This document shows, piece by piece, positions 1 to 64,000 of a stretch of DNA of 64,000 bases (positions are counted from its first letter, which is position 1; each line of letters begins with the position of its first letter). This DNA comes from Liolophura sinensis (lineage: Eukaryota; Mollusca; Polyplacophora; Chitonida; Chitonidae), in assembly GCF_032854445.1 (NCBI RefSeq), contig NC_088298.1, positions 5,390,160 to 5,454,159 on the forward strand, read 5' to 3'. The notes below the pieces were generated by a model. That model saw only the letters and a program-made list of their open reading frames with translations. It searched no databases and was not told the origin of the DNA. The position numbers and the translations under genes were made by a program.

Positions 1-287
1 CCAATATTTTACACACATACTTTCTCTTTACTTGAAGTATGCTAATTCTAAAAAAAAAACTGAAAAAATTTTATTGATGAATGCTGTTTAAATAGTTTCA
101 TGTCGGTACACCTGTGGTGAGACTAAGCCTAAACAAGTGTATGTGCGGCACACAGGCTCCAAAGGTCAAGTCTGTCTAGTGGTGGCAGTGAGGTAAGGTG
201 AGTGTGGAGAATGGCGCTTGCGCTGTAAGGAGAACACATATGCTGCTTAACACTCCTGTATAAACTTCAGTCAGCCACATGCTCACA

Positions 288-528
288 GGGGGCCTCCGTG
301 GCTTAGGTGGTTAGGGCGCTACCGCAGCGTCACGACCCAGGAGCCTCCCACCAATGTGGTCATGAGTTCAGATCATGCTGGTTTCCTCTCCGGCTGTAAG
401 TGGGAAGCTCTGCCAGCAGTCTGCAGATGGTCTGCTCGGTTTCCTCTCATCATAATGCTAGTCACTGTCATTTAAGTGAAATATTCTTGAGTATGGCGTA
501 AAACACCAATCAAATAAATAAAATAAAT
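288..528 (+). repeat. tRNA-derived SINE (family 1), near full length
   Basis: It begins with a tRNA-like head: an A box inside CCGTGGCTTAGGTGG and a B box inside TGAGTTCAGATC. The shared body follows (TGCTGG, TCCTCTCC, CATAATGCT, AAATATTCTTGAG) and the AAATAAAT tail. Other copies have the same body on either strand. The pol III promoter boxes and lack of coding capacity identify a SINE. It lies in the intron downstream of ZC3H15 exon 9. Confidence 0.85.
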
Positions 529-1369: not shown

Positions 1370-4300
1370 CTGTACAAAAAGAACAAAGGCATCTTAATAT
1401 CTTTGGATATATGTATATATGTAATTATTCTTGGTAACTGGTCTCTTCATCTTTGATATTTTAATAGTTGCTACCCAACATATTTTCCAGGTTTTTAAAT
1501 CATGGAAACAAAAGTAACTGTATTTCTAATTTAAAAATTCACCCTTTCTTTGCAATTTGGATTCAATTTAGAAAGTTCAGAACACCATCTAACAATACAT
1601 GTTCTTCATACTACACCATACAAACAACAGTAAAAACAACTACTGTAAATGCCTTTTTATTCACATCGTACTAACATTCGCAGATTTCGCGGCTAACACA
1701 TTTCCGCGAAAATAAGTGCCATCAAATGTGAAACTCATGTAAGCAATTTATTAATGTAACATGCATTACAGTTATAAATTCATTAACAAGCACTACAGTT
1801 CTAATACTTTTTCAAACACGCTTTCACAAATTCAACTTATTTGATCGTCAGTTAATCTTGCTTTCTTTTAAGGAGGCTTAGCTCCGTCTAAGTATCGCCT
1901 CTCTGCGACGTTATTGTTGTTGTTGATTTATTGCCGCGGTCAGAGACATACAAATCGATAATCTGTACTGGGCGTGTGTACATGATACGATATACACACA
2001 ATGAGAGAGGTTGTTTTTTTATCGACTGTACTTGCCTTCCACTCAGATCACCTTTCCGACGCACCTGATACATCGCTCGAAGGCTTTCCCACGTCAAACT
2101 TCCTTTTCATAATAAGGATTTCTGAGAAATTTACTCAAATCTAACTCAGTTTACTCACAGTTTCACTCACAATGCTGATGCATGAGAATTAAAGTGGGAT
2201 TTATTTATATCACATTTAATCCTTCGTCATCTCCCAGAGTAAGTGACATGAATATTTGCTCACAGAGCAGGTAAGGGCTTCGTCTTATAAAGATTAACAG
2301 TCTTCAAAAGATTAAAAGCTTAGGAGGATTAACTTCCTTTGTCTGATCAAGTCACTGTATTGTATAGAATTTTGATTCCTGTGAATGTGTCTTCTTACCA
2401 AATCTGCGAAAGTTTATACCCGCGAATAAGAAGGCATTTACAGTAACTGAATTTCAAATAAAACTGAATACGCTCTTGGCATTTCTTTCCTTTTTAACAC
2501 AGGTAGAAATTATTACAAACACAAGCTCTCTTACAACCATTCCTTTCTTTGATTACATGTACCTTGCTTTTCTTAGCTTATAACCCTTCAGATATTTGGT
2601 ATGATTACCTTCCCATCCTTAGCTTACAACCCTTCAGATATTTGGTACGATTACCTTCCTGTCCTTAGCTTACAAGCCTTCAGATATTTGGTATGATTAC
2701 CTTCCCGTCCTTAGCTTACAAGCCTTCACATATCTGGTACGATTACCTACCCATCCTTAGCTTACAAGCCTTCAGATATCTGGTATGATTACCTACCCAT
2801 CCTTAGCTTACAACTCTTCACACATCTGGTATGATTACCTACCTGTTATTAGCTTACAAGCCTTCAGATATCTGGTATGAATACCTTCCAATCCTTAGCT
2901 TACAACTCCTCAGATATTTGATACGATTACCTTCCTGTCCTTAGCTTACAACCCTTCAGATATCTGGTACGATTACCTTCCTGTCCTTAGCTTACAACCC
3001 TTCAGATAGTTGGTACGATTACCTTTCTGTCCTTACCTTACAACCCTTCAGATACTTGGTATGATTACCTTTCTGTCCTTAGCTTACAACCTTTCAGATA
3101 TCTGGTACGATTACCTTCCTGTCCTTAGCTTACAAGCCTTCAGATATCTGGTATGATTACCTTCCTGTCCTTAGCTTACAAGCCTTCAGATATCTGGTGC
3201 GATTACCTTCCCGTCCTTAGCTTACAAGCCTTCACATATCTGGTACGATTACCTTCCTGTCCTTAGCTTACAAGCCTTCAGATATCTGGTGCGATTACCT
3301 TCCTGTCCTTAGCTTACAAGCCTTCAGACATCTGGTGCGATTACATTCCTGTCCTTAGCTTACAACCCTTCAGATATCTGGTATGATTACCCTCTCATCC
3401 TTAGCTTACAACTCTTCAGACATCTGGTATGATTACCTACCTGTTATTTGCTTACAACCCTTCAGATATCTGGTACAATTATCTTCCTGTTCTTAGCTTA
3501 CAAACCTTCAGATATTTTGCAAAATTACCTTCCTTTCCTTCCATTTCAGAAAAGTTTCCAGGGTGACCCGCGTTGTGTTAGGTCCTAAAGCCGCTCTCTG
3601 AAAAAAAAAAAGAAGAAAAAAAAAAAAAAAAACAGGACAAAGGTCACAAACATTTCAATTACAGTTTTTCATGACCTCAAGATTATTACAGATGAACTGA
3701 GTTGTGAACATTTCAGAGCCAAATACAGCTTTTCAATTTGGGCACCCTTTCAGCAGGCCTTCCTTGGCATGCTTGGGCTACAATATTTTCAGACATTCAG
3801 AAACTGTCACTTAATGTGTTTAAATTCATAACACAGTCAACTTTTTTGTATATATTTGTACAGCCAGTACCCAGGGATATAAGTTTATGTTTTCAAACAT
3901 ACTAAAGCTAAATGTATCAAGCATTATTCTCCATAATTTGGGCTTTTCATGACAACACAGCATTTGACATCTAATCATTTTTGTTTTCAAACGAATTTTG
4001 TTTGTTTTCGACGAATTTTGGAGGAAAATTATTATCTGGTAATAAATACACATCCCACACCTCCTTCTCAATAAGCTCCTCTATTGAGATCTCATCTTCT
4101 TTATTCTCCTTCTTCTGGTCTTTCTTCAGTACAAATCCTGTGAAATGGAGATGAGAGGCTGTAAATGTAGGCCAAAAGTTGAGAATTGTTTTTGTTTATG
4201 TGATTGTTTTTTTACAACGCAATCAAGAATCAAGTTCCAGCTCATGCTGGCTTCCCGTTCGGCCGTACGTGGGAAGGTCTGCCAGTAACCTGCAGATGGT

Positions 4301-7300
4301 CGTGGGTTTCCTCCCACAATAATGCTGGCCGCCATCGTATAAGTCAAATATTCTTGAGTATGGCGTAAAACACCAATCAAATAAATAAGTAAGAATCAAG
4401 AAGAGAGACACTGGGCAGAGGCTGGGAAAACCCACAGCCATCCAAAGATTGCTGATTATAAAAACATAACTCAGCGGTTGTAGATGTAGGTTATGTTGTA
4501 TAGGGCGTAGATATAACATTGGTCAAAAATTATAAATATACGACATTGTTGTATATACAGGACAAATGTAGCAAATATAGGACAACTGTTGTAAATATAG
4601 GACACATGTTGTCATATAATGGTGTTATATGCACCAAGAAACAAACTTTGTGTTTGAAACAAACTGCAGTCATGACGACACACATGTACACATGCCGTGA
4701 GTTAGTAAAAAGAGTTCAGTTACTTTTATGGACCGATCTTTGTTGTGATTCATTATCAACAACAAGACAGATGTTGTAAATATAGGGCCAATACTGTATA
4801 TACAGGAAAAAAGTTGTAAACATGAGACAGCTGTCACAAATACAGGACAGTTGTTGTAAATATGGGACCAATGTTGTAAATACCGGAAAAAAGTTGTAAA
4901 CATAAGACAGATGTCGTAAATAAAGGACAGACGTTGTAAATATAGGACCAATGCTGTAAATACGGGAAAAATGTTGTAAACATAAGACAGCTGTTGTAAA
5001 TAAAGGACAGTTGTTATAAATATAGGACCAATGTTGTAAATATAGGACAGACGTTGTAAATATAGTACCAATGCTGTAAATACTGGAAAAATGTTGCAAA
5101 CATAAGACACCTGTCGCAAATACAGGACAGTTGTTGTAAATATAGGACAAGTGTTATAAATATAGGACCAATGTTGTAAATATACGACAGTTGTTGTAAA
5201 TGTAGGACCAATGCTGTAAATATAGGGCCAATGTTGTAAATATGAGACGAATGTTGTAAATATAAGAAAAATGTTGTAAATATAGGATGTATGTTGCAAA
5301 ACATAGTTCAGGGAATGACAGAAGTTGTTACCATAAATCAGATTCACCTGAATTTAAAAATCTTACCTGGTGGCAATGAATGTTTATAAATACATTTCTC
5401 TCCATTTGGACATTCCCAGAACCATCCGTATTTACTATTTTCAACGGCGTCCAGGAAAAATTTGCATATCTGGAAAAAAAAACCTAACAGTTTTAAATTT
5501 TCAAGAATTAAATTTATAAATAAAACATTAGCAGGGTATGACAATAGGAACTGCTATTCTTTGATGAAGACACAAAAAAAGAAGTATGTCATGCCCAGAC
5601 AAAAACATGTCTTTGCTGCAAATAATTGCCTCATGCTATCTGAACTGATAATTACATGAAGACAGGGCACATTTCAGCTCATCTGACATCAAAAGGTTAC
5701 TTCTAATTTTAGGACAGATATTGGCTGACTTTCACTTTATTTATTTGTTTATTTCACTGGTGTTAAACGCCGCACACAAGAATATTTCACTTAGACGACG
5801 GGGGCAAACATTATGGTGGGACGAAATCGGGTAGAGCCTGGAGGAAACCCACGACTTCCTGCAGGTTGCTTGCAGATCTTCTCATGTACTCCCTGACTTT
5901 TGTGTACATATAGAATGGTTAATCTGACATGCGCTATTAGGTACGCAGTTTGATACTCATTGACAGTGGTATATTTGCCTTGTCCAATGTGACAGTTACA
6001 GACACCATATACTGTATTTCTGTATCCTTCCAGAGAAACCGTGTAACAAATTTATCCTTCAAAAGACTCATTATTTCACAGCTGAAGGCCAATATATCGG
6101 AAAATTGCTTCAGTGTTGTAACTGTTTTCAAATCCAAACCGAGTTAAACCTAGTCAACAGACACGTATGGTATTTGTACAGGTCAAATTGCCTCAGAATT
6201 GTCACTAGCTTCAAAGCAGAACAAAGAGAGATAACCAGGCCACAGACACGTGTGGTATTTGTACAGGTCAAATTGCCTCAGAATTGTCACTAGCTTCAAA
6301 GCAGAACAAAGAGAGATAACCACGCCACAGACACGTGTGGCATTAGTTTCAGAATCATACTCCTCACAGTGCATTACATTATTGCATTATTATAATGGAA
6401 ATCTGACTTTGGGAATATACACATAGATGTGAATATGCTGTCTAATGGTAATCTGACTGGGAATATACACATAGATGTGAACATGGCTGTCTAATGGTAA
6501 TCTGACTGGGAATATACACATAGATGTGAACATGGCTGTCTAATGGAAATCTGACTGGGAATATACACATAGATGTGAACATGGCTGTCTAATGGAAATC
6601 TGACTGGGAATATACACATATATGTGAACATGGCTGTCTAATGGAAATCTGACTATGGGAATATACACATAGATGTGAACATGGCTGTCTAATGGAAATC
6701 TGAATACTTCGTCTGAGGTGGGATAAAATAGCTTATTAGACTCACAATGGCTGTTTTGGGTTTTGCCTTATTTGTCTCTCCATGTTTCTGGTTGACAACA
6801 TCTTCCAGCTTGTCAGTGTCCCAGTTATCCATTGTATCTTCTGTAAGGCAACAATAACAAAACAATCAAATTCAGTTAAATGACTGAATTATTTCACGAA
6901 AAACCTTCTCCAGATTAATGGATTAATTGCTCACGTATGAAGCCACAATCAAGAAGAAATCAATTCCACCATGGCTGTATTTATTTCTTTCTTTATTTAT
7001 TTGATTGCTTTATTTATTTATTTATTTGATTGGTGTTTTATGCCGTACTCAAGAATATTTCACTTATACGACAGTGGCCAGCATTATGGTGCGTATAAAC
7101 CGGGCACAGCGTAAGGGAAACCCACGACCATCCGCAACTTGCTGCAAGACCTTCCCACTTAAATGGAGGATATTAGACAATGAAGGTTGAACATCATTAA
7201 TATTTTTATTGCGAGGGGTGGAAATGATAACCCACGAGACCCGAGGTTGAGTACACTTATACTGTGATTTCATCCCACTGAGATCTTATTGGAACGACAC

Positions 7301-10300
7301 AAAACAAAATGTTTCTTTTTTTTTTGGCTTCATGGCACCTGGTTGTGAAAAATCCAAATTTAACAATAAAGTGACGTCTAAATGAGTGAAATATCAATTC
7401 TATCACTTAAGGAAATTCTGACAATTCACCTTCACATAAATAATTAATCAAATTCTTTGGCTCAATACCACACATGGCACCCTGTGAGTGCGGCTCTAAT
7501 TCTGCTGACTCAGCACATTACCTGCATCACCAGCATCAGCGTACACACTACGCTTCTCTCCCTTGCGGCCGAGGTTCATGTCATGGGAAAACTTGCACTT
7601 ATCTCCTTTTTTACACTGGCCTTGCTTGAAGAACGCACATAACACAGACTTAGGATCAACACCTACAAGAAAAGGAAGTTTCTTTTTTAAACAGTTACAT
7701 CATATCCATATCCCTTCGTAGACCTGGTTGTTAAGCTTGGATTGGGTTCCTGCCACCATAATGCTGGCCGCTGTGGTACACATTTATTTATTTATTTCAT
7801 TGGTGTTTTACGACATACTCAAGAATATTTCATTTATACGATGGAGGCCAGCATTACGGTGGGTGGAAACCGGACAGAGCCCCTGGGGAACCCATGACAT
7901 CCACAAGCCGCCGGCAAATCCTCTCAAGTACAGTCAGAGAGGATGTCTTTTTTATGTCGCGCTGGCATCCTACAGCATGAAGTGACCAGGATACACAACC
8001 AAACTTTGCCAATTTTTATGATGAACTTTCCCATGTAAAGAACACGCACACCACATGAGTGGAAGGCATCATCGAAAGCTAGACTGCACAAACCAGGACA
8101 CAAGCATCAGTGATCACTTAATAGAGATTTTGGTAATTTTGGTAATAATATTTCCAGCTATTTGCTACTTTTGATTTCTCTGGTTATTAATATGATCGCA
8201 CAGAGTTGGTTTGATTTGTCTGATTGCTGTTTTACACCATATAATGCTGGCTGGCGTTGTGTAAGTTAGATGTACAGGTATACCTTTGCCGACAGTCTGC
8301 GCGACAGGCTTAAACAGCATGTTCAGCTGCTCCTGCTCCTTTTTCTTCTCCTCTTTCTTTTTGTTGGCGGGTTCCTCAGTCGCTGCCTGTCATTACAAGA
8401 AGAAACATGTCCGTGATTCCAAGACATGGAAAGTCTACGATTACAAGAAGAAATATGTCTGTGATTCCAAGACTTGGAAAGTCTACGATTACAAGAAGAA
8501 ATATGTCTGTGATTACAAGACATGGAAAGTCTACGATTACAAGAAGAAATATGTCTGTGATTCCAAGACTTGGAAAGTCTACGATTACAAGAAGAAATAT
8601 GTCTGTGATTACAAGACATGGAAAGTCTACGATTACAACAAGAAACATGTCTGTGATTACAAGACATGGAAAGTCTACGATTACAAGAAGAAACATGTCT
8701 GTGGTTCCAAGACATGGAAAGTCTACAATTACAAAAAGAATTCACAGCAAATATGTAGTCATAAAATAGACAGGGTCAGGTTTCACAAAGTAACGTCCCA
8801 CATTTATTTGTCGTACACTTGTACGATATCTTGTACATCACTATTACTATAACATTGTCTTATACGTGCGACTATCAACGTGTACAACATCTTTGTGAAA
8901 CTGGGCCCAGGTTATTAACAAAGACAAACCATGCCTCAAAAAAAAAAAAAATTGCTTTCATCATTACCTTTAAAACCAAAACCTTCACTTTTAAATAGAG
9001 TCTCTTTCATGTATCCTTTAAGTTCCTTTTAAATTGTTGCTGGACACCGTAAATTCTGGGTAAGTTACTGCACAACAAATTTCAGCTAAAATAACGGCAA
9101 GAAACATTTTGACTTAAGTCAAAGATCCCTTCATAACCCCAGGGCCAGGGTTTGCACACTTTTCATATAACATCCAAGGGCTTCAAAGGAGCTTTCCTAA
9201 TATTATGAAAAAAATCAAGGATTTTTCAAGGCTAACATGTCACCTTTTACTTTTATACATGTTCTGTATAAACTACATATTCCTTTGCCATATTAAATGA
9301 ACCAGAGGGCAGTTTATGGAAATAACTGACTCAAAAGGAATACTGGTTACTGTGATTCTGTAACCTTTTCGGATGTTTGCAAGGTGTTTATTTAAGCTTA
9401 TTCAGAAGGCACTGTTCTGTGTAAAATTATACTTTTTGTAAAGCCATGAAATCAGCCAACCCAACTAGTGTAGTTTTGTCTTCAAAACAAATGAAAAAGG
9501 TGTATAAACTGTCACTATGAAAGTCGCTATTTCATATACAAAAAGGCTGGGGAATGAAGGTAACTAGCAACTGCTCACCCAGTTAAACTAACTTTTTGCA
9601 AGCTCAAGCATACATATATACTTCTGTTTTTTAAATGGATTGATTTCAAGTCAGGGTTATTACAATATCTGCCGTAAGTTCTAATTAGAAAATTCAGACT
9701 ATTAATGTTCATCCTCTTACCTTTTTGGGATTATTCCCGAATTTGACCTGTTGGGTGACAGTCTTGATGAATTTCTGCTGCTTCCCACCTTTCTTGTTTT
9801 TGAGTCCAAAAGTCTTGTCCTGAAAACGACGGTAAAGAAATATACAAAACACTTAAACTGTGGCTCGTAGTAAATTTTCTGAATTCTTTACACTTTTTAC
9901 TAAATGAGTGGGTTGTTGTAAAGACTAGGTTGCTGAACATGGTAGAGTAATGTTAATTTATTGAAGAATCTCCGGCCGCAAGCTGTAGCAAGCAAGCTCT
10001 AGCTGTAGCCTTTACAGTCTAGCCTTACCACCTCGCTAGGCTTTAACCTAGCTGTAGGTGAGATCAAAATGAAAGGCTGTCAGTGTTCCCACATGTACTC
10101 TCAGTAAAACCCACATGCTGTTTGGTCATTTGTTTACCTTGTTAGAAAGACCGCCGAAGGTAAACATCGAAACATTTTTCGGGTTTTCGATGCACCCTAG
10201 TTGTGGCGTGGTTCAACATGGCTGTTGTAGGATGCTTTTCGAAGCTTTGGCGGTTAATATGTCAAGAAAACTTTGATGTATCCCATGAACTGGTGTGGAT

Positions 10301-16529: not shown

Positions 16530-17612
16530 TCAGACGCTTTGGTACGTGATCACACTGACGCTCGTCGTCCCGCTCTTGTCGTCAGTTGCCGCAGTCCTCC
16601 ACGTGCACGTTATTATCCGGTAAATGGTTTTTCGATTGTCTGGCTTCAGGAGACAGTAGACGTACGGGTTTATGGCGCTGGATGCCACTACGATGGTCGA
16701 TCTCATTCTCTGTAGGGCGTAACTGATCTCAAATCCTCCCACGGCAATCACCACAGTAGGCATGACAGTCACCATCAAGGTCACGACGAGAATCACGTGG
16801 GTTATCACGTGACTCACCTGACGCTTGAGGAAGGCTTTCATGGCGGCGCTCTCCATGCCGTTGTTTCCCGCGTTCGATTTGAACTCTCCGAAAGCTTTAA
16901 GCAGTTTGTAGCAACTGAGTACGTAGCAGACTGCAACCATAAGTAAAGTCAGCCCCATGGTATATATTAACAAAGGAACGGACACGCCGTGATCGCCGAC
17001 AACTGTTTTCCCATCGGAGCTGGAGTTGTCTTTCGGATTTAAGTCCCAAACAGGCGCGACTGTATTATTCGGTAGAAAGAAACTCTCAATGTCACTGGAT
17101 GTGGAATTAAGGGTGGAGCTGTTGTCGGGGATAACGAAGTACATGCCAGGGATTGGTGTGACGCAGTTCAAGGCGATGATAACGAGGTCGAATATTAGCA
17201 AAAAGGCCACAAACTTTGATTTGTCGGGACGTCTAAATGGGTTACAAATCACCCAGCATCGAAGATAAGCAATCGCACCTAATGTGACATAGGACGCAAA
17301 AGAAGACATGAAAAACACCCTGAGGCTTATTTGCTTGTTGAGGAACCACAGTATACCGTAGCGCTCGGTCACGTTGTTGTAAAGACTGAAGAATCCGCAA
17401 GATTCCAGATATATTCCAATTGGAACGTGAGTGCAGCAGATAAGCAAATCCACACAGGCGAGATGTAAATATGCAATGCCGTTCAAGCGATTTTGTCGGA
17501 AGGACCGACCGTTTAGAAGAATCGCGAAGGTGTTTCCAGAAACGCCGAAGATAAAGATCAGCACAAGAAGACAGAGTCTTATCCAAACTAGTTCGGGGTC
17601 TTCGAACTTCAT
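16530..17612 (-). CDS. Atypical class A (rhodopsin-like) GPCR, single coding exon, orphan
   Basis: 360 residues with seven hydrophobic segments. TM1 has GVSGNTFAILL. TM2 has LHLACVDLL with the conserved Asp. TM7 has SSAINPYVYCLL, an intact NPxxY. TM6 keeps the Pro (VTVMPTVV) but lacks the CW of CWxP. The DRY position reads YLRCWVICNP, so the Asp and Tyr are replaced while Arg remains. TM4 (FLLIFDLVIIAL) lacks the usual Trp, and no Cys is obvious at the top of TM3. Extracellular loop 2 is long and carries several N-glycosylation sequons (NSS, NST, NNT, NSS). The C-tail is short and Ser/Thr-rich. A cell-surface receptor is a safe call; the ligand is unknown. A TTTGCAG acceptor at about 17,690, upstream of the ATG, suggests an intron in the 5' UTR. 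Confidence 0.85.
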   Translation of the reverse strand: MKFEDPELVWIRLCLLVLIFIFGVSGNTFAILLNGRSFRQNRLNGIAYLHLACVDLLICCTHVPIGIYLESCGFFSLYNNVTERYGILWFLNKQISLRVFFMSSFASYVTLGAIAYLRCWVICNPFRRPDKSKFVAFLLIFDLVIIALNCVTPIPGMYFVIPDNSSTLNSTSSDIESFFLPNNTVAPVWDLNPKDNSSSDGKTVVGDHGVSVPLLIYTMGLTLLMVAVCYVLSCYKLLKAFGEFKSNAGNNGMESAAMKAFLKRQVSHVITHVILVVTLMVTVMPTVVIAVGGFEISYALQRMRSTIVVASSAINPYVYCLLKPDNRKTIYRIITCTWRTAATDDKSGTTSVSVITYQSV

Positions 17613-17984
17613 TGCTTCTTTCTTTAGCGGTGAATTCAGCTTTGTTGTCTTGTCTGATTCGTCTATCTATCGATTTCTTAGGTAGACCTGCAAATGATAA
17701 TGATAATATTAATAACTATAATAATGATAAAAATCATTAACATATAGCACACACATCACATACGTATAGCAGAATAAACACTCAAAAAATCAATCTGTTC
17801 ATTTTAACAGAAAACCTGTTGTCTGAGTGATGCTAGAATGTATACTGTTATTATAACATAATACTATGTCGTATTCAACATAACATCCTGTTAGACTAAT
17901 TTTTATGTTGAATTAATGGAATACGTGCGTTATATTTGACAGAATAATCTGCTGCAACAGTAGAATACATTCTAACATTCTAGA
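17613..17984. other. Upstream region of the single-exon GPCR
   Basis: Contains the probable 5' UTR with a candidate splice acceptor near 17,691, a short ATAATGATAA-type run, and otherwise AT-rich sequence. No TATA box could be assigned with confidence. Confidence 0.4.
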
Positions 17985-33339: not shown

Positions 33340-33600
33340 AACTGAGGTAAATTGACGAGTACATGTGACAATTTGCCAACTGTTACACTCCCGTCGCTGC
33401 TCTCCATGCTGTAGCCTTTTATATTACAAACCCCGTCAGTAAGCCTGCTTTAGTCATGGCGTTAGGCTCCTACTTTTTAAAGTTATACATGAACGGTGGG
33501 AAAAAAACACTGGCTGAGGTAAATGTAATAAAGGCCGCATTTCATCAGTTATACGTCGTGTTACAATTTGCCTGTCATAACACTGTCGTCACTGCTCTAG
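33340..33600 (+). repeat. Dispersed repeat R1, two copies upstream of the array
   Basis: GAGGTAAATTGACGAG then CCCGTCGCTGCTCTCCATGC at 33,340-33,415, and a second similar block at 33,514-33,600 that passes directly into the 48-bp array. Confidence 0.6.
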
Positions 33601-35335
33601 TTTTACTCTCCATGCTGTACGTCTATCACACTATCGTCGCTGCTCTGGTTTTACTCTCCATGCTGTACGTCTATCACATTGTCGTCGCTGCTCTGATTTT
33701 ACTCTCCATACTGTGCGTCTATCACACTGTCGCCGCTGCTCTAGTTCTACTCTTCATGCTGCACATCTATCACACTGTCGCCGCTGCTCTAGTTCTACTC
33801 TCCATGGTGCACATCTATCACACTGTCGCCGCTGCTCTAGTTCTACTCTCCATGCTGCACATCTATCACACTATCGTCGCTGCTCTAGTTCTACTCTCCA
33901 TGCTGCACATCTATCACACTGTCGCCGCTGCTTTAGTTCTACTCTCCATGATGCACATCTATCATACTGTCGTTGCTGCTCTGATTTTACTCACTTGCTA
34001 TACGTGTGTCAGACTGTATGTCTGTCACACTGTCGTCGCTGCTCTAGTTTTACTCTCCATGCTGTACGTCTATCAAACTATCGTCGCTGCTCTAGTAGTT
34101 TTACGCTCCACGCTGTACGTCTATCACACTGTCGCCGCTGCTCTAGTTCTACTCTCCATGCTGCACATCTATCACACTGTCGCCGCTGCTCTAGTTCTAC
34201 TCTCCATGGTGCACATCTATCATACTGTCGCCGCTGCTCTAGTTCTACTCTCCATGTTGCACATCTATCATACTATCGTCGCTGCTCTGATTTTACTCTC
34301 CATGCTATACGTGTGTCAGACTGTCGTCGCTGCCCTGATTTTACTCTCCATACTGTACGTCTGTCACACTGTCGTCGCTGCTCTGATTTTACTCTTCATA
34401 CTGTATGTCTATCACACTGTCGTTGCTGCTCTAGGTTTACTCTGCATACTGCACATATATCACACTAACGTCGCTGCTCTAGTTTTACTCTCCATGCTGT
34501 ATATCTATTACACTGTCGTCGCTGCTCTGATTTTACTCCCCACATTGTACGTCTATCACGCTGTCGTCGATGCTCTAGTTTTACTCTCCATGCTGCACAC
34601 CTATCACACTATCGTCGCTGCTCTAGTTTTACTGTCCATGCTATACGTGTGTCAGACTGTCGTCGCTGCTCTGATTTTACTCTCCATACTGTACGTCTGT
34701 CACACAGTCGTCGCTGCTGTAGTAGTTTTACTCTCCATGCTGTACGTGTATCACACACTCGTCGCCACTCTGGTTTTACTCTTCATGCTGTACGTCTATC
34801 ACACTGTCATCGTTGCTCTGGTTTTACTCTCCATGCTGTAACCTGTATCACACTGTCGTCGCTGCTCTGGTTTTACTCTCTATGCTGTATGTCTATCACA
34901 CTGTCCTCGCTGCTCTGGCTTTACTCTCTATGGTGTACGTCTATCATACCGTCGTCGCCGTTCTGGTTTTACTCTACATGCTGTATTTCTCTCACACTGT
35001 CGACGCTGCTCTAGTTTTACTCTTCATGCTGTACGTCTACCACACTGTCGTCGCTGCTCTGGTTTTACTCTCTATGCTGTATGTCTATCACACTTTCGTC
35101 ACTGGTCTGGTTTTACTGTCCATGCTGTACGTCTATCACACTGTCGTCGCCACTCTGGTTTTACTCTTCATGCTGTACGTCTATCACACTGTCCTCGCTG
35201 CTCTGGCTTTACTCTCTATGGTGTACGTCTATCATACTGTCGTCGCCACTCTGGTTTTACTCTCCATGCTGTATTTCTATCACACTGTCGACGCTGCTCT
35301 AGTTTTACATTCCATGCTGTACGTCAAGCTTTTTT
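33580..35335 (+). repeat. 48-bp satellite, about 36 units, reading as a hydrophobic frame
   Basis: The unit contains GTCGTCGCTGCTCTAGTTTT and ACTCTCCATGCTGTACGTC. Because 48 is a multiple of three and the unit has no stop in the main frame, the array gives a 461-codon frame (33,456-34,841) of repeated VAALVLLSMLYVYHT-like blocks, and further frames downstream to 35,385. Near-perfect periodicity, open alternative frames and relatedness to the non-coding repeat R1 argue against a gene. Confidence 0.9.
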
Positions 35336-51972: not shown

Positions 51973-54900
51973 CTGAAACGGTAGAATTTACGAAAAAGTG
52001 TTAAGATGTCAGCAGTCTGAATTCGACAGATTCTCCCACTAATCGGGGGCATTTGGCGGGAACAAGCGCTCCACAACTTTCTTAGTGCAAATTTGATGGT
52101 TGGGGGCCTTCTTGCATAAACCGGGATTCTTCTGATAGGCTAATTATTGCCCGGGCCTGACCCTTTTGCATTGTTTTAATACTATTGTTTATTAAATGTG
52201 ATGACAACACAGCAATTTAAGTAATTCTAGACCCGTGATGTCTAATTAATTGCAATTAACCTTACTGCATTGTCTTACCTACCTCTACTTAAAGGCAAAG
52301 GCCACTCCAATATGAAGTATATATCAGCTGAAGGATCATTAAAAACTGTCCAGGAAATTAGCTGGATTTATTTTTTTTATAGATTTTTTTTTCTAACCGA
52401 TTAAAATTGTGTTAAAAGATCAGATTCTGCGGTGGCCTGTAATGACCCAGTAGGTATCAATTACGTCACATCTATACTTTTAGCCTGAAATAGCCTGAAA
52501 GGTCAAATGGGTGAATGCATTCATAGATCTATATTTATATGCATTTTGAATGATGAAATATAGCAGTCTAATGTGTGTTAAGTAGCAAAAGCCTCATGTG
52601 ACGTCACTGGTCAGATTTTGGTCAGTAATAGCAACTATAGATAAAAATATTAAAATGCATTTTACAAGGTTAAACAAACTGTAAAAAAAATAAATCAAAC
52701 TATTTTCCTGGGCAGTTCTTAATGGCCCTTGATGTTATACACACTTCATTTTCGAGTGGTCTTTGTCTTCAAGCCATAAGCTACTAATTTGCTACTATTT
52801 AAGCACTTACATGAAGAGTTAGGTAAACTGACAAGCGACCGTATTTCACAGATTAGGTGTGACCATTGGCCACTTATCACACTGTGGTCACCACCCTGGT
52901 TTTACTGTTTATGTTGTTTTGTTTTAAATTACACAGACTTATTTAGGTTCATTTACTTTCCACAAGTATAAGCTCTACACCAGGCTGACCAGTTTGAATA
53001 TAAGACATATACTATAGCCAATATATTTATTTATTTTTTTGATTAGTATTTTGACAAGAATGTTTCATTTATACGACGGTGGCCAGCATTATGGTGGAAG
53101 GAAAGTGTGCACAGCCCGGGGGGGGGGGGGACACAAGAACATCCACAGGTTTCTGCAAAACCGTCGCACATACGGCCGGAGACGAAGCCAGCATGAACTG
53201 GACTTAAACTCACAGCGGAAGCATCCGTGAGACGTTCTTCAGCTATTGTGCCGGGATGGCACGCTAACGACCTCGGCAACGGGGGCCCCCTACAGCCACT
53301 ATAAAGACTTTAAGCAGATTGATGTAAAACTTCTGACTCACCCGTAACTATTGTTAATGTCATCTTTATCGTTTTAATCTTGGCCTTTGGAATAACTCCC
53401 CGACTACTTGAGGCCTGTTTAAGTTCAATATTTCCATTCCTGCAGCTCTCACAACTGTCTCCTGGAGGAAGAGGTATAAAACAACCAGTGAGACGCAAAC
53501 GTAACTAAATTTATAACAACCAGTCAGATGCAAACATTACTAAATGTATAACAACCTGTCAAATGTAAACGTAACTAAAGGTATAACAGCCAGGCAGACG
53601 TAATCGTAACCAAATAAACAATAATCGGTCAGACGTAAACGTAACTAAATGTATAACAACCAGTCAGACGTAAACGTAACTAAATGTATAACAACCTGTC
53701 AGACGTAAACGTAACTAAATGTATAATAACCAGGCAGACGTAATCGTAACCAAATAAACAATAATCGGTCAGACGTAAACGTAACTAAATGTATAACAAC
53801 CTGTCAGATGTAAACATAGCTAAATGTACAACAACCAGGCAGACGTAAACGTAACTAAATGTATAACAACCAGGCAGACGTAATCGTAACCAAATAAACA
53901 ATAATCGGTCAGACGTAAACGTAACTAAATGTATAACAACCAGTCAGACGTAAACGTAAGTAAATTTATAACAACCAGTCAGGCGTAAACGAAACTAAAT
54001 GTATAACAACCAATCAGGCGTAAACGAAACTAAATGTATAACAACCAGTCAGACGTAAACGAAACTAAATGTATAATAACCAGGCAGACGTAATCGTAAC
54101 CAAATAAACAATAATCGGTCAGACGTAAACGTAACTAAATGTATAACAACCAGTCAGACGTAAACGTAAGTAAATGTATAACAACCAGTCAGGCGTAAAC
54201 GAAACTAAATGTATAACAACCAGTCAGGCGTAAACGAAACTAAATGTATAACAACCTGTCAGTTGTAAACATAGCTAAATGTATACCAACCTGTCAGATG
54301 TAAACGTAACTAAATGTATAACAACCTTTCAGACGTAAACGAAACTCAATGTATAACAACCAGTCAGTCGTAAACGTAGCTAAATGTATACCAACTTGTC
54401 AGATGTAAACGAAACTAAATGTATAACTACCAGTCAGGCGTAAACGAAACTAAATGTATAACAACCTGTCAGATGTAAACATAGCTAAATGTATACCAAC
54501 CTGTCAGATGTAAACGTAACTAAATGTATAACAACCTTTCAGACGTAAACGTAACTCAATGTATAACAACCAGTCAGTCGTAAACGTAGCTAAATGTATA
54601 ACAATCAGTCAGACGTAATAGTAACCAAATATACAATAATCGGTCAGACGTAAACGTCATCAAATGTAGAGCAACTGTTCAGACGTAAACGTCAAGAAAT
54701 ATAGAAAATCTGGGCAGTTGTAAACGTAACCAAATGCAGAACAACTGGTCAGACGTAATCGTAGCTAAATATATGCATTACAATGTCACTGATGCTTTTA
54801 CTACTCCTAAAGTAATTTATAACCACAGGTATTGTTGTCAGTAAGTGTAACTGATTATGAAAAAAATTTTATGGCAAAACAAAACAAAAGCAAAACAAAC

Positions 54901-57900
54901 AAAACAAACAAACAAACAAAAAAAAAATGGGAAAAGATTCTGGTGATTTCCTCGCTAGATACTGACCTCGGGGCAATAGTCTCTTCCTGGCAAACCTTGC
55001 TCCGCCGTCACTGACAGTGCCATGGTTCCAGATGATTAGCACGATGACGATGTAACAGATGGCGATGAAAATAGCAGGTAAGATGAAGAGAACGATTGCA
55101 ATAAGTGTGATGTAAAGCTGCAGAAGAAAAAAGGAAAGGACAGATTTAATATAAATGGTGGAATTAGGCATTTGACTGGGTCACTTGGGGGTTGGGTTTG
55201 TAAATTGACATACATAATCTTAAGTTGAATTTATAAGAAAAGAACTATACACTTTCGCGATTTTTTTTAGGAAATTGTTCCACACATTTAAAGAAAAATA
55301 CGCGTTTGAGAGAGTATTAACTTTCTAAAAAGGGCCGATTTTCTAAAGCGAGCAGCTGAATTTAAAGACGCATTTGTATCCATTATTTGAACTCTTTTTA
55401 ACGACACTAAAATTCTGTCGATTCTATTTACACTGTTGCCCAAAATGACGGAATAAAATAAATTCAGGTTACATTTCTGGAAAATACAAGTATTTGGTCC
55501 TCTCTGCAATACACTTGGCTCTTCCTAGCTGTTATACGAAGGACCCTTTATGTAAGTGGAAGCCAAAAATTTAGTTACGTGAAAGGGCTTTTGGTTGAGA
55601 GCCATGTAAAGCGACACAATTTAAGTTTCGTACTATCTCTCCGGCTGCATCCCTATATAAACAGGTCTTCTGTTTAGGCCATCCCTGATTTCATGGACGC
55701 AAATTTTGGCATAGCAGTTCACAGTGTCATGTCTGCTCCTACGCCACTAGCGATTCGACGGAGGGTGGTTGCCCTAAGACAGGAAGGGTTTAAACAGGCC
55801 GATATCGCCACTTTCGCAGGGATATCACAAAGTGCAGTCTCTAAGATTCTGAAACACGTCAGAGAGGTACATCAGTTAACGCCAGGAAAGCCAACAGGGC
55901 GTCCACGTTCGACCACAAGACGACAGGATAGGAGACTCGTACACCTGTGTCGAACAAACCGGAGAATGCCAACCAGCCGTCTCAGTCTCTTGTGGAGGCA
56001 ACACTATGGGGTTCGTGTTTCACGCCAAACCGTGAATGGTCGACTTACTGATCAGGGCATCGAGCAAGACGGATGGTCAGATGTCCACGTCTGATTGCTC
56101 CGCATCGTGTTGCACGATTCCTTTGGGCTAGGGGGCACCGGCGTTACAGGTCGGCCACTGGCGTCACGTCGTCTTCACTGACGAAAGCAGATACATCCTT
56201 GACCGACAAGATGGGCGACAAAGGGTTCGGAGACTGCGTGGTGAGAACCTCCATGATGACTGTGTCCGGGAGTCCCGTCAAGGTGGCGGTTCAGTGATGG
56301 TGAGGAGTGGCATTCATCATGGTGGCAAAACAGAGCTTTTCGTGGCGGAAAGAAACGTCAACGCCGCCGTGTATCTGAATATTTTACAGGAACACTGCTT
56401 GCCACATGCAAGACAAGTCTAAGGCAACAACTTTCGGCTTCAAGACGACAACGCCAGGCCACACAGGGCCAACGTCGTCAGACAATTTCTTTGGGATGAG
56501 GGTGTGGAGCAGCTCCCATGGCCAGCCTGTTCGCCTGACATGAACCCCATCGAGCATGCCTGGGATGTCCTTGGCCGTGCGATCAAGGACCGGGACAATG
56601 CACCTCAAACCCTGCAAAATTAGCATAGGCTCTGAGGGAAGAGTGGGACGCTATGCACGTTGACGTCATCAACAACCTCGTTGATAGCATGCCGCGGCGT
56701 CTCCTTGCCCTCATTCGTGCCAGAGGTGGTCACACACGTTACTAGAAACTTTTAATCTTTTGCTGAGACTTTAATTGTGCATTCCCATTTGTCAATCTCA
56801 TCGATTCATCTGTTTTCATTTGAATCTTATGGTGACATTAAATCTCAACAATTGAAACTAAATCTTCTGGTTTTGTATTCCTTTCACCAGTTTGCATTCT
56901 CTGGACGTTTGAAGATTGCAAATGGTTCCACCTTTTAACCGAAGATGGTAAATCTGTCTACAGTTTTCTGGGTAGATTTGGGCAAATTTGGAAAAAATCT
57001 GGCACAAAATAATTTATTCCATCATTTTGGGCAACAGTGTATCTGACCGTGTGAATTTGCAAAACCATGTTCAAATTGTTTATGATGAGTTTCATTATAT
57101 TTGGTAGAACATCATTCATTCATTCCCCTAGAGCAATCCTTGCATCTTTCCAACAATATTGACCAGTGGTCATTGATTGGCCGTTTCTCATTGCACGATT
57201 TCGTCCTAATTTCGCCTTTTGAGACCTTTTTCTCCCACCATTACGATGTGTTTATCTGTACGTCACACGTGAGAAAGTTCGTCAGTAACTTGCCAAAGGC
57301 TGGTGGTTTACCCCGACCACTCCCATTTGTTTTATCCTTACACATGACCGCCATCGTATGAAGGACGACAATCGACTGTAAAGCCTTCTATCGACGTTAC
57401 AATCCATTGAAAATATAAGTTACGCAGCTTGCAGAAGGAATTGTTATGTAATTGAAAATTTTCCGAGTTACGACATAGGCCTGCATAAACAGGCAATGTA
57501 GCCATCAGTTACATTTCTTGCCTTCCTTTACGAATGCATTTGCACACAATAATGGTTCAGCAGCTAACAACATGTGAAAAATTTCCGTTACATCTTTTTG
57601 ACACAATTAATTTGCACATGTTTGCAAACAGAGTCGAAACTTACTAGATGCCATTCAACGTAGAGCAACTATGTGCACTTAGCGTAAACTTTGGAGCGAT
57701 CTTAAATATTTTACAACAGGCTGTAATTGTTTTGTCGTAAGCTTTAATACTATCCATTTGCAAGTGGTCCCAGGCTGTTTGATTTCCATTACCTTCCAGT
57801 GCCAGTGCTCGGGGAAGTTAATCCAGCATTGCCAAATTCCGTCTTTAAACACCAACTCGTTGATGGAAGTCATCGGCAAAGCGAACAGGAAAGAAATCGT

Positions 57901-60900: not shown

Positions 60901-61563
60901 CCTCCTAGGGAGTTTTAATTATTCGACTCAACAAATCAATGACTTCCAATGATTTTTTTGTTTGCTTTAGGTTTTAAATGCGTTTCCAGGTCACCTAGTT
61001 GTCTTTTTTTCATCGGTACTACTTAAGACAGCCCTTAAGGAGATAAAATAAAAAACATAAGTAAATCCCGGGGAAAAAAGCGCTGAAATGAAGGTTCAAA
61101 ACTACCGTGACTTTGTTTTTCAGTTTTTCTTTTTGAGGGAATTCAGCACAGTCAAATCCTTGAACAGTTTGATTTGTTTTTTACAGCCAGGATTCTGATG
61201 GTGATAATCCTTATCCAAGACATTGTTTTCATGTGAATGTTTATTAAATATGGCTATCACAAGCATTGATTGATTGATTGATTAATTAGCTGATTGGTTG
61301 ATTAATTCACTGATTGTTTCGACTTGTACGGGATTGTTTGATTTAATTCACTGTAACTGAGTTACCTGCTCTAGTAAAGTACATGGGTCTAGCTATGACG
61401 TCTAGTCTGTCTATACTCAGAGCCACCAGGACGTAAGTAGATGCGTATGTGACGACGCCTTGCATGTAGCGAACAGTTCGACAGACTGCGTCACCTGCCA
61501 TGAATTCCACCGTGATCTTCCATATCGTGTCCGGTAGAACATTCAAAAGGCCGACGCTCAAGT
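51731..61563 (-). CDS. Neuropeptide GPCR, CCAP receptor / neuropeptide S receptor type, partial gene (five exons, TM2 to C-terminus)
   Basis: The five exons join in phase with GT-AG ends and cover TM2 through the C-terminus. TM2 has [14 protein letters not shown]. The TM3 region has [12 protein letters not shown], then [22 protein letters not shown]4 has [17 protein letters not shown], and loop 2 has GIWQCWINF with the conserved Cys. TM5 follows, then the third-loop end [19 protein letters not shown]6 [18 protein letters not shown] and TM7 [14 protein letters not shown]. The SSRG-IPKAKIK stretch and the GLLNVL..IW motif are typical of the arthropod/lophotrochozoan CCAP receptor and vertebrate NPS receptor group. 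The family is Gq/Gs-coupled at the plasma membrane and responds to an amidated or cyclic peptide; the ligand here is inferred. DRY reads DRL. The exon(s) for the N-terminus and TM1 were not found and probably lie beyond 64,000. Confidence 0.9.
51973..53021. other. Intron between receptor exons D and E, first part
   Basis: Contains an R1 repeat copy at about 52,800-52,930 (ATTTCACAGATTAGG, then CACACTGTGGTCACCACCC). No other exon seen. Confidence 0.55.
53022..53290 (-). repeat. SINE family 1 in the receptor intron
   Basis: Body and head are recognisable; a run of about 12 G interrupts the middle (53,119-53,130). It ends only about 50 bases from the exon D donor. Confidence 0.87.
53342..53461 (-). 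CDS. Neuropeptide receptor exon D (loop 3, start of TM6)
   Basis: The acceptor is CCTCTTCCTCCAG and the donor ACGG|GTGAGT. It encodes [16 protein letters not shown] and [21 protein letters not shown] 35-bp array reaches almost to its acceptor. Confidence 0.93.
53472..54770. repeat. 35-bp satellite abutting the exon D acceptor, about 36 units, higher-order structure
   Basis: The plus-strand unit contains AACAACCAGTCAGACGTAAAC and GTAACTAAATGTAT. ACAAC(C) starts at 53,481, 53,516 and 53,551: exactly 35 bases apart. A variant block (CAGGCAGACGTAATCGTAAC, then AATAAACAATAATCGG) recurs near 53,588, 53,735, 53,871 and 54,079, showing multi-unit duplications. Confidence 0.93.
54967..55117 (-). CDS. 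Neuropeptide receptor exon C (TM5)
   Basis: The acceptor is TTCTTCTGCAG and the donor CCCCGAG|GTCAGT (phase 1). It encodes [20 protein letters not shown], then [10 protein letters not shown] and a basic start of loop 3 ([11 protein letters not shown]). Confidence 0.92.
55118..55430. other. Receptor intron between exon C and the Tc1 element
   Basis: AT-rich; nothing recognised. Confidence 0.4.
55431..57039 (+). mobile_element. Tc1/mariner-type transposon, about 1.6 kb, inside the receptor intron
   Basis: The left end CACTGTTGCCCAAAATGACG and the reverse complement of the right end, CACTGTTGCCCAAAATGATG, form 27-base terminal inverted repeats with one mismatch, bounded by TA at 55,429-55,430 and 57,040-57,041. 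The element runs opposite to the receptor gene. The ends are well preserved while the transposase is broken. Confidence 0.92.
55693..56745 (+). pseudogene. Tc1-type transposase, disrupted
   Basis: The N-terminal 133 codons are intact: a helix-turn-helix pair ([20 protein letters not shown], then [11 protein letters not shown]) and the GRPRS linker. The catalytic domain follows in another frame: first Asp in FTDESRY, second in DDNARPH, and Glu in [10 protein letters not shown], so the DDE triad can be read. In-frame stops (near 56,419 and 56,621) and at least two frame changes make it non-functional. A TATATAAAC box at 55,654 could be its old promoter. Confidence 0.9.
57042..57792. other. Receptor intron between the Tc1 element and exon B
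   Basis: 57,270-57,365 carries the TTGCCAAAGGCTGGTGGTTTA repeat also seen at 29,060. Nothing else is recognised. Confidence 0.45.
57793..57935 (-). CDS. Neuropeptide receptor exon B (TM4, loop 2)
   Basis: The acceptor is CTTTTCACAG and the donor TGGAAG|GTAATG. It encodes [19 protein letters not shown] and on to [16 protein letters not shown]. Confidence 0.93.
57936..58554. other. Receptor intron, two reversed R1 repeat copies
   Basis: 58,060-58,140 (GAGAGTAAAACTAGTACAGC) and 58,300-58,390 (GGAGAGTAAACCAGAGG, then GTAACAGGTGAAATAC) are R1 on the minus strand. Confidence 0.55.
58555..59060. repeat. 39-bp satellite, about 13 units, in the receptor intron
   Basis: The unit contains CGAATGTTGACATTACGGCC and CCATGCCACGGGTGCTGGG. 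Its length is a multiple of three, so long frames appear on both strands; these are by-products. Confidence 0.92.
59061..59616. other. Receptor intron, nothing else recognised
   Basis: A few diverged ATGGTGT(A/C)AAA repeats at 59,180-59,280; otherwise no feature. Confidence 0.4.
59617..59878 (-). repeat. SINE family 1, full length, in the receptor intron
   Basis: Reverse orientation, with a T-rich tail and a head ending CCAACTGAGCCACGAAGGCC. One of the best preserved copies. Confidence 0.92.
59879..61365. other. Receptor intron upstream of exon B side, nothing recognised
   Basis: No exon with receptor similarity was found. A short (ATTG/ATTA) run occurs at 61,265-61,315. Confidence 0.4.
61366..61563 (-). 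CDS. Neuropeptide receptor exon A (TM2-TM3)
   Basis: The acceptor is TTTTTCCAG and the donor AGAGCAG|GTAAC. It encodes [17 protein letters not shown] through [15 protein letters not shown]. The first two bases complete a codon begun in an upstream exon. Confidence 0.92.
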
Positions 61564-61859
61564 CTGGAAAAACAATGAAACAGATTTAATTGAATGCAAA
61601 TCATGGAAAACACCATAATACAAGTATATCTGACTGCTGCAAATCTGGAATACATTCAGTTGGTTTTAATTGATGCCAATCTGGAAATCACTTGAGTTGA
61701 TCTAATTGATGTAAATCTTGAAATCTTTGGAGAAGGTCTCAATCATCCAGAACGGTTACATCTGATCCAGACACCAGTTACATCTGATAGCCTGAAATCT
61801 GAGACACATCTGAATTGATCTGTTGGAAGGATTGGCTGGTGCAAATCTGGAAGGTGCTT

Positions 61860-63310
61860 TAATATACTTGTTATAGTCTGTATACAGTGTACAGGAAATG
61901 ATTTAAATGTGGAAAACAATGTACAGGGTGCGAATGATTTAAACGTGAAAAGCAGTGTGCAGGGTATGAATGATTTAAACCTGGAAACAATGTACAGGAT
62001 GTGAATGATTTAAACGTGGAAAACAGTGTGCAGTGTGTGAATGATTTAAACGTGAAAACAATGTACAAGATGTGAATGATTTACACGTGGAAACAGTGTA
62101 AAGGGTGTGAATGATTTAAATGTGGAAACAATGTACAAGATGTGAATGATTTAAACGTGGAAACAATGTACAAGATGTGAATGATTTACACGTGGAAACA
62201 GTGTACAGGATGTGAATGATTTAAATGTGCAAACAATGTACAAGATGTGAATGCTTTAAACGTGAAAACAATGTACAAGATGTGAATGATTTACACGTGG
62301 AAACAGTGTACAGGATGTGAATGATTTAAATGTGCAAACAATGTACAAGATGTGAATGCTTTAAACGTGGAAACAATGTACAGGAGGTGAATGATTTAAA
62401 CGTGAAAAACAATGTACAGGGTGTGAATGATTTAAACGTGGAAAAAATGTACAGGATGTGAATGATTTAAATGTGGAAGCAATGTACAGGGCATGAATGA
62501 TTTAAACGTGGAAAACAATGTACAGGACATGAATGATGTAAACGTGGAAACAATGTACAGGATGTAAATGATTTAAAAGTGGAAAAAATGTGCAAGGTGT
62601 GAATGATTTAAACGTGAAAACAATGTACAGGATGTGAATGATTTAGACGTGAAAACAATGTGCAGGGTGTGAATGATTTATACGTGGAAAACAGTGTACA
62701 GAGTGCGAATGATTTAAACGTGGAAAAGAGTGTACAGGCTATGAATGCTTTTAACGTGGAAAACAATGTGCAGGGTTTGAATGATTTAAACGTGGAAACA
62801 ATGTGCAGGGTGTGAATGATTTAAAAGTGGAAAACAATGTGAAAGGTGTGAATGATTTAAACGTGAAAACAATGTACAGGATGTGAATGATTTACACGTG
62901 AAAACAATGTGCAGGGTGTGAATGATTTATACGTGGAAAACAGTGTACAGAGTGTGAATGATTTAAACGTGGAAAAGAGTGTACAGGCTATGAATGCTTT
63001 TAACGTGGAAAACAATGTGCAGGGTTTGAATGATTTAAATGTGGAAACAATGTACAGGGTGTGAATGATTTAAACGTAGAAAACAATGTACAGAGTGTGA
63101 ATGATTTAAACGTGGAAAAGAGTGTACAGGCTATGAATGCTTTTAACGTGGAAAACAATGTGCAGGGTTTGAATGATTTAAACGTGGAAACAATGTGCAG
63201 GGTGTGAATGATTTAAACGTGGAAAACAATGTGAAAGGTGTGAATGATTTAAACGTGGAAAACAATGTACAGGATATAAATGATTTAAACGTGGAAAACA
63301 ATGAATAGGA
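61860..63310. repeat. 35-36-bp satellite, about 40 units, upstream of receptor exon A
   Basis: The unit contains GTGAATGATTTAAACGTGG and AAACAATGTACAGG. Longer blocks of several units recur almost identically (for example 62,690-62,800 and 62,930-63,040), so it has higher-order structure. Confidence 0.93.
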
Positions 63311-64000
63311 TGTGAATGACCTCACTCATTGAATTACATTCACGCTTCACTGGGAAAGTCGAAATGAAGTGTGACCGGTTGAGCTGTCAGTAAGGAATCA
63401 GACATTTGAGCGTTTCAGTTTGCAATCTGATACCAGTGATTTTTCTGTGAATTTCTTCTTCAGATTTTCACCTTCGATAACTGCTGTTTTTCTATAATCA
63501 GCAACTTATTTGTTTAACTTTAAGGGTGATATTAATGTCATAGTGACCTGTGAATGCCATTAAAAGAACAGTTTGTTAAGATCATCTTCCGCTCTGATGA
63601 CTAAAATGTAAAATTTACATCTCCACATCGTCGCAAAAACTTGGTTATAAACTCATACTCATTAATCTTAATGATTCCTACCTCGCTGTAATGGCAAATC
63701 TGGAAGAAAAAATACACATCTTGAGACAGTAATGTACATACTTTCGCACTTGATAGGCCTGGATCAGTATGATACATTATTCCGAGCCATTTTAGAAAAA
63801 CCAAAAACACGCATTAAGAAAATGAAACGTCCGCGTAATCGCCAAGCCTGGTAAAGTACATCATTGCGGTTCTAAAGTCACAGCACATACAAAATACAAA
63901 AGAGTGAAATGAAATATGATATTGTGATATAAAATCAAAGACTGCGATTAGAGTGAGACAGAGTGATGTGATTGGCCGAGAAAGGGAAATGCACCATGCC
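63311..64000. other. Right-edge sequence, probably intron of the receptor gene
   Basis: No TM1-type exon could be read on the minus strand. An 18-base segment with good flanking splice signals at 63,682-63,699 was considered and set aside. Confidence 0.4.

Follow-up and report, generated by a model that had tools for sequence, protein, structure and literature searches.

A minisatellite at the exon 3 acceptor of ZC3H15 in the chiton Liolophura sinensis, probably expanded from the splice site itself

In the chiton Liolophura sinensis, the 3' splice site of exon 3 of the ZC3H15 gene is the terminal unit of a 48-bp minisatellite at the end of intron 2. Probably the segment around the intron's own 3' splice site was multiplied in tandem to give the array, which would work like the minisatellites known as mirages in lancelets, with the exon-proximal copy remaining the acceptor. 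It lies in a 64,000-nucleotide stretch (the window) of a genome published as Liolophura japonica (PMC11068029), a name later corrected to L. sinensis (PMC12441733). The preliminary description of this DNA, which had recognised the exon 3 acceptor as the last repeat unit, is supported: the array is real and was correctly read, and it represents a single case within a wider pattern in this genome.

The nine joined exons of the gene, located on the minus strand, encode 279 aa. The product carries both DFRP_C and a CCCH zinc finger and aligns with yeast Tma46 (E 1.5e-61, residues 1-260), which identifies the gene as ZC3H15/DFRP1. The exons on either side of intron 2 (1334 bp) join in phase 0. Gene, intron and phase had all been named correctly beforehand.

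Table 1. Features of ZC3H15 and its surroundings in the window, and arrays at splice sites of sampled genes. A slash marks the exon-intron junction; sampled arrays are given under their working names.
Feature	Position	Strand	Remarks
Exon 2 of ZC3H15	9721-9819	-	ends AAAAAG/GTAAGA, phase 0
48-bp minisatellite, 3' end of ZC3H15 intron 2	8392-8740	-	TRF period 48, 7.3 copies, score 607
Upstream units (six full, one partial)	8435-8742	-	13 decoy AGs in register, 24 nt apart, -48 to -336
Terminal unit, 3' splice site of exon 3	8387-8434	-	43/48 to consensus; -24 AG lost (GG)
Exon 3 of ZC3H15	8284-8386	-	continues phase 0 from ACAG/GCAGCG
20-bp array, intron 6	4766-5287	-	unit recurs, worn, across exon 7 acceptor
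Worn 20-bp units across exon 7 acceptor	4128-4186	-	score 24; reached by 2/3000 random window stretches
Exon 7 of ZC3H15	4061-4137	-	
Exon 8 of ZC3H15	3529-3597	-	
46-bp array at exon 8 5' splice site	2560-3540	-	21 copies; first unit is the real donor, including 12 exon bases
Acceptor of presumed GPCR-like exon (first base 61563)	61559-61613	-	resembles 36-bp array 61638-61723; score 30, reached by 0/3000 random stretches
Exon-containing donor arrays, samples 1 and 2			CCTa 5471 (109-bp unit), CCTe 5473, CCTe 6884, CCTh 3122, P13b 1890
Exon-containing donor arrays, exon windows			L032, L046, L061, L083, L086, L123, L143, L158
Acceptor array, kinesin exon L036			64-bp unit; AG in 4/5 copies
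Acceptor array, myosin exon L134			32-bp unit; AG in 9/9 copies
Acceptor array without exon bases, CCTe	1-449		41-bp unit, 11 copies; AG in 10/11
Acceptor array without exon bases, CCTi	7698-8154		unit extends into the polypyrimidine tract

The exon 3 acceptor reads GTTTCTTCTTGTAATGACAG/GCAGCG on the minus strand, and its last intron base is 8387. In the register of this acceptor, the consensus 48-bp unit is ACTTTCCATGTCTTGGAATCACAG ACATATTTCTTCTTGTAATCGTAG, also on the minus strand, and the 3' end of the terminal unit is TGTAATGACAG/GCAGCG. Units 1-6 match the consensus at 45-47 of 48 positions, and the eighth, partial unit at 22/48. The acceptor AG is kept in register in all eight detected copies. 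The terminal unit departs from the consensus at three bases beside the AG and at two others, one of which removes the AG at -24. The exon bases GCAGCG lie outside the unit: homology stops at TAAT, and the unit end falls 3-5 nt short of exon 3. The likeness is not confined to the pyrimidine tract, since the whole unit up to TAAT matches, three bases are skipped, and the AG is kept. In a chance test, 40 intron and 20 exon bases at the acceptor scored 31 against the unit; the top score among 1104 other 60-nt windows from the gene was 15. The unit starts given in the preliminary description miss the junction by about 4 bases, an immaterial difference.

Two features extend that description, namely an inner AG spacing of 24 nt and the fact that the terminal unit alone lacks the AG at -24. 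Each 48-mer consists of two related 24-mers, both ending in AG, and AG is present at 13 of the 14 positions taken at 24-nt steps from -24 to -336. The stretch before the real site is therefore AG-free for 48 nt. An extra off-register AG occurs in each of units 1 and 3. A 24-bp duplication was probably the starting point of the array, because the two halves agree at 14/24 positions, a value reached at that offset by 0.1% of shuffles. An origin from a dispersed repeat was rejected: a search of the assembly (609,464,459 bases, 632 contigs), by a method that skips very common words, matched the 349-bp array itself and no other copy.

The real exon 3 site scores 10.9 bits, at the 64th percentile of 78 acceptors sampled from this genome. 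These 78 acceptors, selected by means of a rough consensus, also supplied the score matrix. A wrong exon 4 acceptor entered this analysis, which leaves the claims unaffected. The 13 decoys score 4.2-9.4 bits (at or below the 45th percentile), all below the real site. The AG context of the real site is ACAG/G, against GTAG/A or ACAG/A in the decoys. Only the exon-proximal copy has the most favourable AG context together with an AG-free run of 48 nt and a position next to the exon, which is why it would remain the acceptor. The loss of the AG at -24 is not strictly needed for this, since the AG-free stretch is 24 nt or shorter in 21/78 sampled acceptors. Judged by its score of 9.4 bits, the decoy at -336 could compete with the real acceptor. 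Another candidate acceptor is the in-phase AG 12 nt inside exon 3 (ACTGAG/GAA).

TAA and TGA are present just upstream of exon 3 in its frame, as had been reported, and the expectation that upstream acceptors would introduce stops holds for 13/13 in-register decoys, each of which meets an in-frame stop within 14 codons. The start of a single exon is likewise contested by several AGs in NAGNAG and other tandem acceptors. The chiton array differs from these in that its AGs are spaced at 24 and 48 nt and none form the 3-nt pair, each AG has its own upstream tract, and use of the upstream AGs adds stops.

The expansion probably proceeded in two stages, in which a segment of about 24 bp was duplicated first and the resulting 48-bp dimer was then multiplied. 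The acceptor segment would have seeded the array, with the copies accumulating upstream, inside the intron, and, to judge from the sequence, only the terminal copy being spliced. The upstream copies would be latent decoys whose use would lead to a stop and probably to mRNA decay. Such expansions would be tolerated because the exon-proximal copy still works. Comparable arrays at the acceptors of CCTe, L134 and L036, and at the exon 8 donor of ZC3H15, support this origin by recurrence. With a 48-bp unit free of exon bases, either direction may apply: the splice site may have been copied into the array, or, less probably, the array may have grown to the exon.

That splice-site segments do get copied follows from arrays that contain exon bases, such as the 46-bp array in intron 8 of the same gene. 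The end of exon 8 is AAGGAAAGGAAG/GTAAT, compared with GGACAGGAAG/GTAAT in the 46-bp unit, and the GT is kept in 17/18 detected copies. The unit of the 20-bp array and that of the 36-bp array in Table 1 resemble the sequence across neighbouring acceptors; the latter belongs to a gene with exons at about 51.7-61.6 kb on the minus strand, which we take to be GPCR-like from its motifs. Two further candidates were dropped: the 49-bp array of intron 5 as a derivative of the exon 5 donor, where the junction proved unexceptional (P 0.08), and a link between the 85-bp repeat of intron 5 (6157-6344) and a junction (best P 0.08). In the alignments of junctions against units, the exon 1 and exon 8 donor positions were 6 and 1 bases off, respectively, and the claims are unaffected.

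Mirages are minisatellites at exon-intron boundaries of lancelet genes, reported for Adh3, globin, troponin C and PGBD5 in the accessible parts of two papers (PMC3087553; PMC3902484). In the text available from the first of these, RT-PCR suggested that mirages leave splicing undisturbed, and they were used as an argument for intron gain via splice-site duplication (PMC3087553). As far as these texts go, the arrays of lancelets and the chiton have in common that short units are repeated in tandem at a 5' or 3' splice site, that many units retain AG or GT, and that both boundaries can be involved. In both ZC3H15 arrays, 8392-8740 and 2560-3540, the real splice site lies in the edge unit, and the signal is kept (8/8 at the exon 3 acceptor, 17/18 at the exon 8 donor). 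Exon sequence within the unit is found in the 46-bp array (12 exon bases) but not in the 48-bp array. The 48-bp array is thus mirage-like, yet it is not classed as a mirage because its unit lacks exon sequence; it is a relative of mirages that sits on the acceptor side and is free of exon bases. The chiton differs from the lancelets in being a mollusc host and in this exon-free unit; exon bases are present, on the other hand, in the 46-bp array and in those arrays of sampled genes that reach into exons. The lancelet papers, in their accessible parts, treat single genes or one gene family, while the chiton samples allow donors (13) to be set against acceptors (2).

Junction repeats are not confined to lancelets, as variable tandem repeats occur at an exon-intron boundary in human segmental duplications, where the accessible text proposes that they form new introns (PMC2812944). 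According to the same text, these minisatellite units (30 bp on average) lie, as in the chiton, at the exon-intron boundary and can alter splicing; however, they are exon repeats in recent primate paralogues, whereas the chiton arrays are intronic, lie in conserved genes and have the splice site as their edge unit (PMC2812944). The Caenorhabditis elegans repeat CeRep25B is an intronic minisatellite with a 24-bp unit that has been linked to alternative splicing, and it shares with the chiton array an intronic location and a possible effect on splicing. It is, however, one repeat family near alternative exons, and its unit is not described as a splice site in the part of the paper available (PMC4039745). 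In the open literature, with subscription papers mostly outside reach, no report of splice-site minisatellites in any mollusc was found (accessible parts of PMC3862624 among the sources), and the sole mention of minisatellites in a cone-snail paper is in its reference list. The new part is the frequency of splice-site minisatellites in a mollusc genome; the closest published cases found are the lancelet genes.

This frequency was assessed in conserved families chosen without regard to repeats. Samples 1 and 2 comprised nine chaperonin genes (of 11 loci) and 14 proteasome plus 4 ATPase loci; samples 3 and 4 comprised 128 exon windows, from 80/132 kinesin and 48/81 myosin exon matches. Across the four samples, 13 arrays hold an exon end with its donor, and two (L036 and L134) hold an acceptor with its exon start. 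The 128 exon windows account for eight of the donor arrays (about 6%) and for both acceptor arrays. The survey, though small, points to splice-site repeats being common in the chiton genome. Copies frequently lack the signal: GT is retained in 9/20 (CCTh 3122), 2/4 (P13b) and 1/2 (L032); in the donor array CCTe 5473 it is present in 5/6. Array CCTh 2189 begins at a donor that is not itself repeated, arrays L139, L128 and L146 end 10-46 nt upstream of acceptors, and many are clear of any known junction, for example CCTa 4584, CCTd 9677 and P6a 499.

The counts were compared with even seeding, in which array starts are uniform over a stretch made up of one unit-length at the exon end and 300 bases of adjoining intron (alternatively 250 or 200). 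In samples 3 and 4 an array had to reach a TRF score of at least 80, and the arrays of ZC3H15 itself were excluded. Some assignments were made by eye: L032 entered the count as a donor case once its donor had been moved, L083 had its donor reassigned, and the donors of CCTe 5473, CCTh 3122 and P13b 1890 were placed in this way. By hand, L056 was shifted from overlap to downstream and L129, whose unit carries a donor, was counted as downstream; two arrays were removed before counting, L077 as a simple repeat and L157 for its low score. On the donor side, 13/38 arrays overlap the exon, against 5.7, 6.7 and 7.9 expected for 300, 250 and 200 nt (P 0.002, 0.009 and 0.035), P values that are soft because the lists were compiled by hand after the arrays had been seen. 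The excess is about twofold, in a hand-compiled, post hoc comparison. The 38 include CCTe 8782 and A6 4692, without which the count is 13/36 and P somewhat lower. By subset, P is 0.018-0.10 in samples 3 and 4 and 0.045-0.14 in samples 1 and 2. On the acceptor side, 2/15 arrays in samples 3 and 4 overlap the exon, compared with 1.7 expected for 300 nt. The ratio of donors to acceptors is 13:2 in all samples (P 0.007) and 8:2 in samples 3 and 4 (P 0.11). Even seeding combined with tolerance explains the acceptor side, and the donor side less well.

These counts bear on an alternative in which the splice site was the taker rather than the source: an ordinary intronic minisatellite would have been seeded elsewhere and spread to the exon, and its end would have been co-opted as the polypyrimidine tract. 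The exon-free unit that ends 3-5 nt before the exon fits this account, as do the arrays of L139, L128 and L146 that stop short of their acceptors, and exon overlap on the acceptor side in samples 3 and 4 is at the even-seeding level. We nevertheless consider it unlikely, as the AG stands in exact register in every detected unit, both inner 24-mers end like two acceptors in a row, and the 46-bp array of the same gene, with its exon bases, demonstrates that splice-site copying occurs.

A regulated device is less probable still. Choice of an upstream unit would add a stop and lower the amount of ZC3H15 protein, and the number of units would tune the level; both 24 and 48 are divisible by 3, and every in-register decoy leads to an early stop, as a poison acceptor should. 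However, every decoy scores below the real site, and similar arrays of many unit lengths occur in unrelated genes, which suggests a general mutational process. That the array is an artefact of assembly or annotation is hardly credible: tandem arrays are prone to mis-assembly, and HiFi coverage is given as 14X in the accessible text of the genome paper (PMC11068029), but the units are not identical, many genes carry arrays whose sequences are unrelated, and the 349-bp array is far below the average read of 8,347 bp stated in the same text (PMC11068029). Tandem expansion of the splice-site segment itself is the origin that we favour.

For the genome as a whole, a tentative and rather doubtful extension is that minisatellites in this chiton lineage arise preferentially at splice junctions, and especially at donors, that the order of splice-site choice sets the surviving side, and that the chiton arrays form a second, independent lineage of mirages. 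Duplicated junctions would be cheap when the real site remains at the edge. In donor arrays, the real donor would come first in the transcript and the copies would land in the intron, so that extra donors downstream of a working donor would be harmless. Extra exon-bearing acceptors upstream of the real one would not be, as these copies precede it and could be spliced in, and such arrays would be expected to be rarer. An exon-free acceptor array, as at exon 3, would be safe while the last copy wins. With donor arrays in 8/128 exon windows, thousands of introns would hold spare rows of splice sites. If this extension is true, the rows would continually give rise to new introns, to longer ones and to shifted exons. 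Mirages have so far been described gene by gene in lancelets, in the accessible literature (PMC3087553); frequent mirages in a mollusc would supply many independent cases together with a comparison of donors and acceptors. They would also make splice-site choice among near-identical neighbours, and intron growth, testable with RNA and long-read data that already exist.

Several side observations were made in the assembly and the window. Chaperonin matches in long single frames at C5:5566404-5568116 and C6:7942446-7943372 (622 and 392 aa), unlike the intron-rich CCT genes, are either distant paralogues or foreign DNA. Eight mollusc haemocyanin domains stand in a row on C8. A dispersed repeat with GGTGTTTTACGCCATACTCAAGAATATTT, presumably common in molluscs, has several copies in the window, for example at 4190-4400 and 7000-7160 (minus strand); a literature search with a 13-base piece of it returned nothing useful. 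Long frames at about 19.4-25.7 kb (plus strand) resemble, by their motifs, a BEL/Pao-type retrotransposon, pieces of frame at 55678-56500 (plus strand) are presumably from a Tc1/mariner-like transposase, and a single 378-aa frame at 16533-17666 (minus strand) is one that we take to resemble a GPCR. The window is rich in minisatellites, with 55 TRF rows and arrays longer than 1 kb at 33580-35325, 53480-54774 and 61897-63319.
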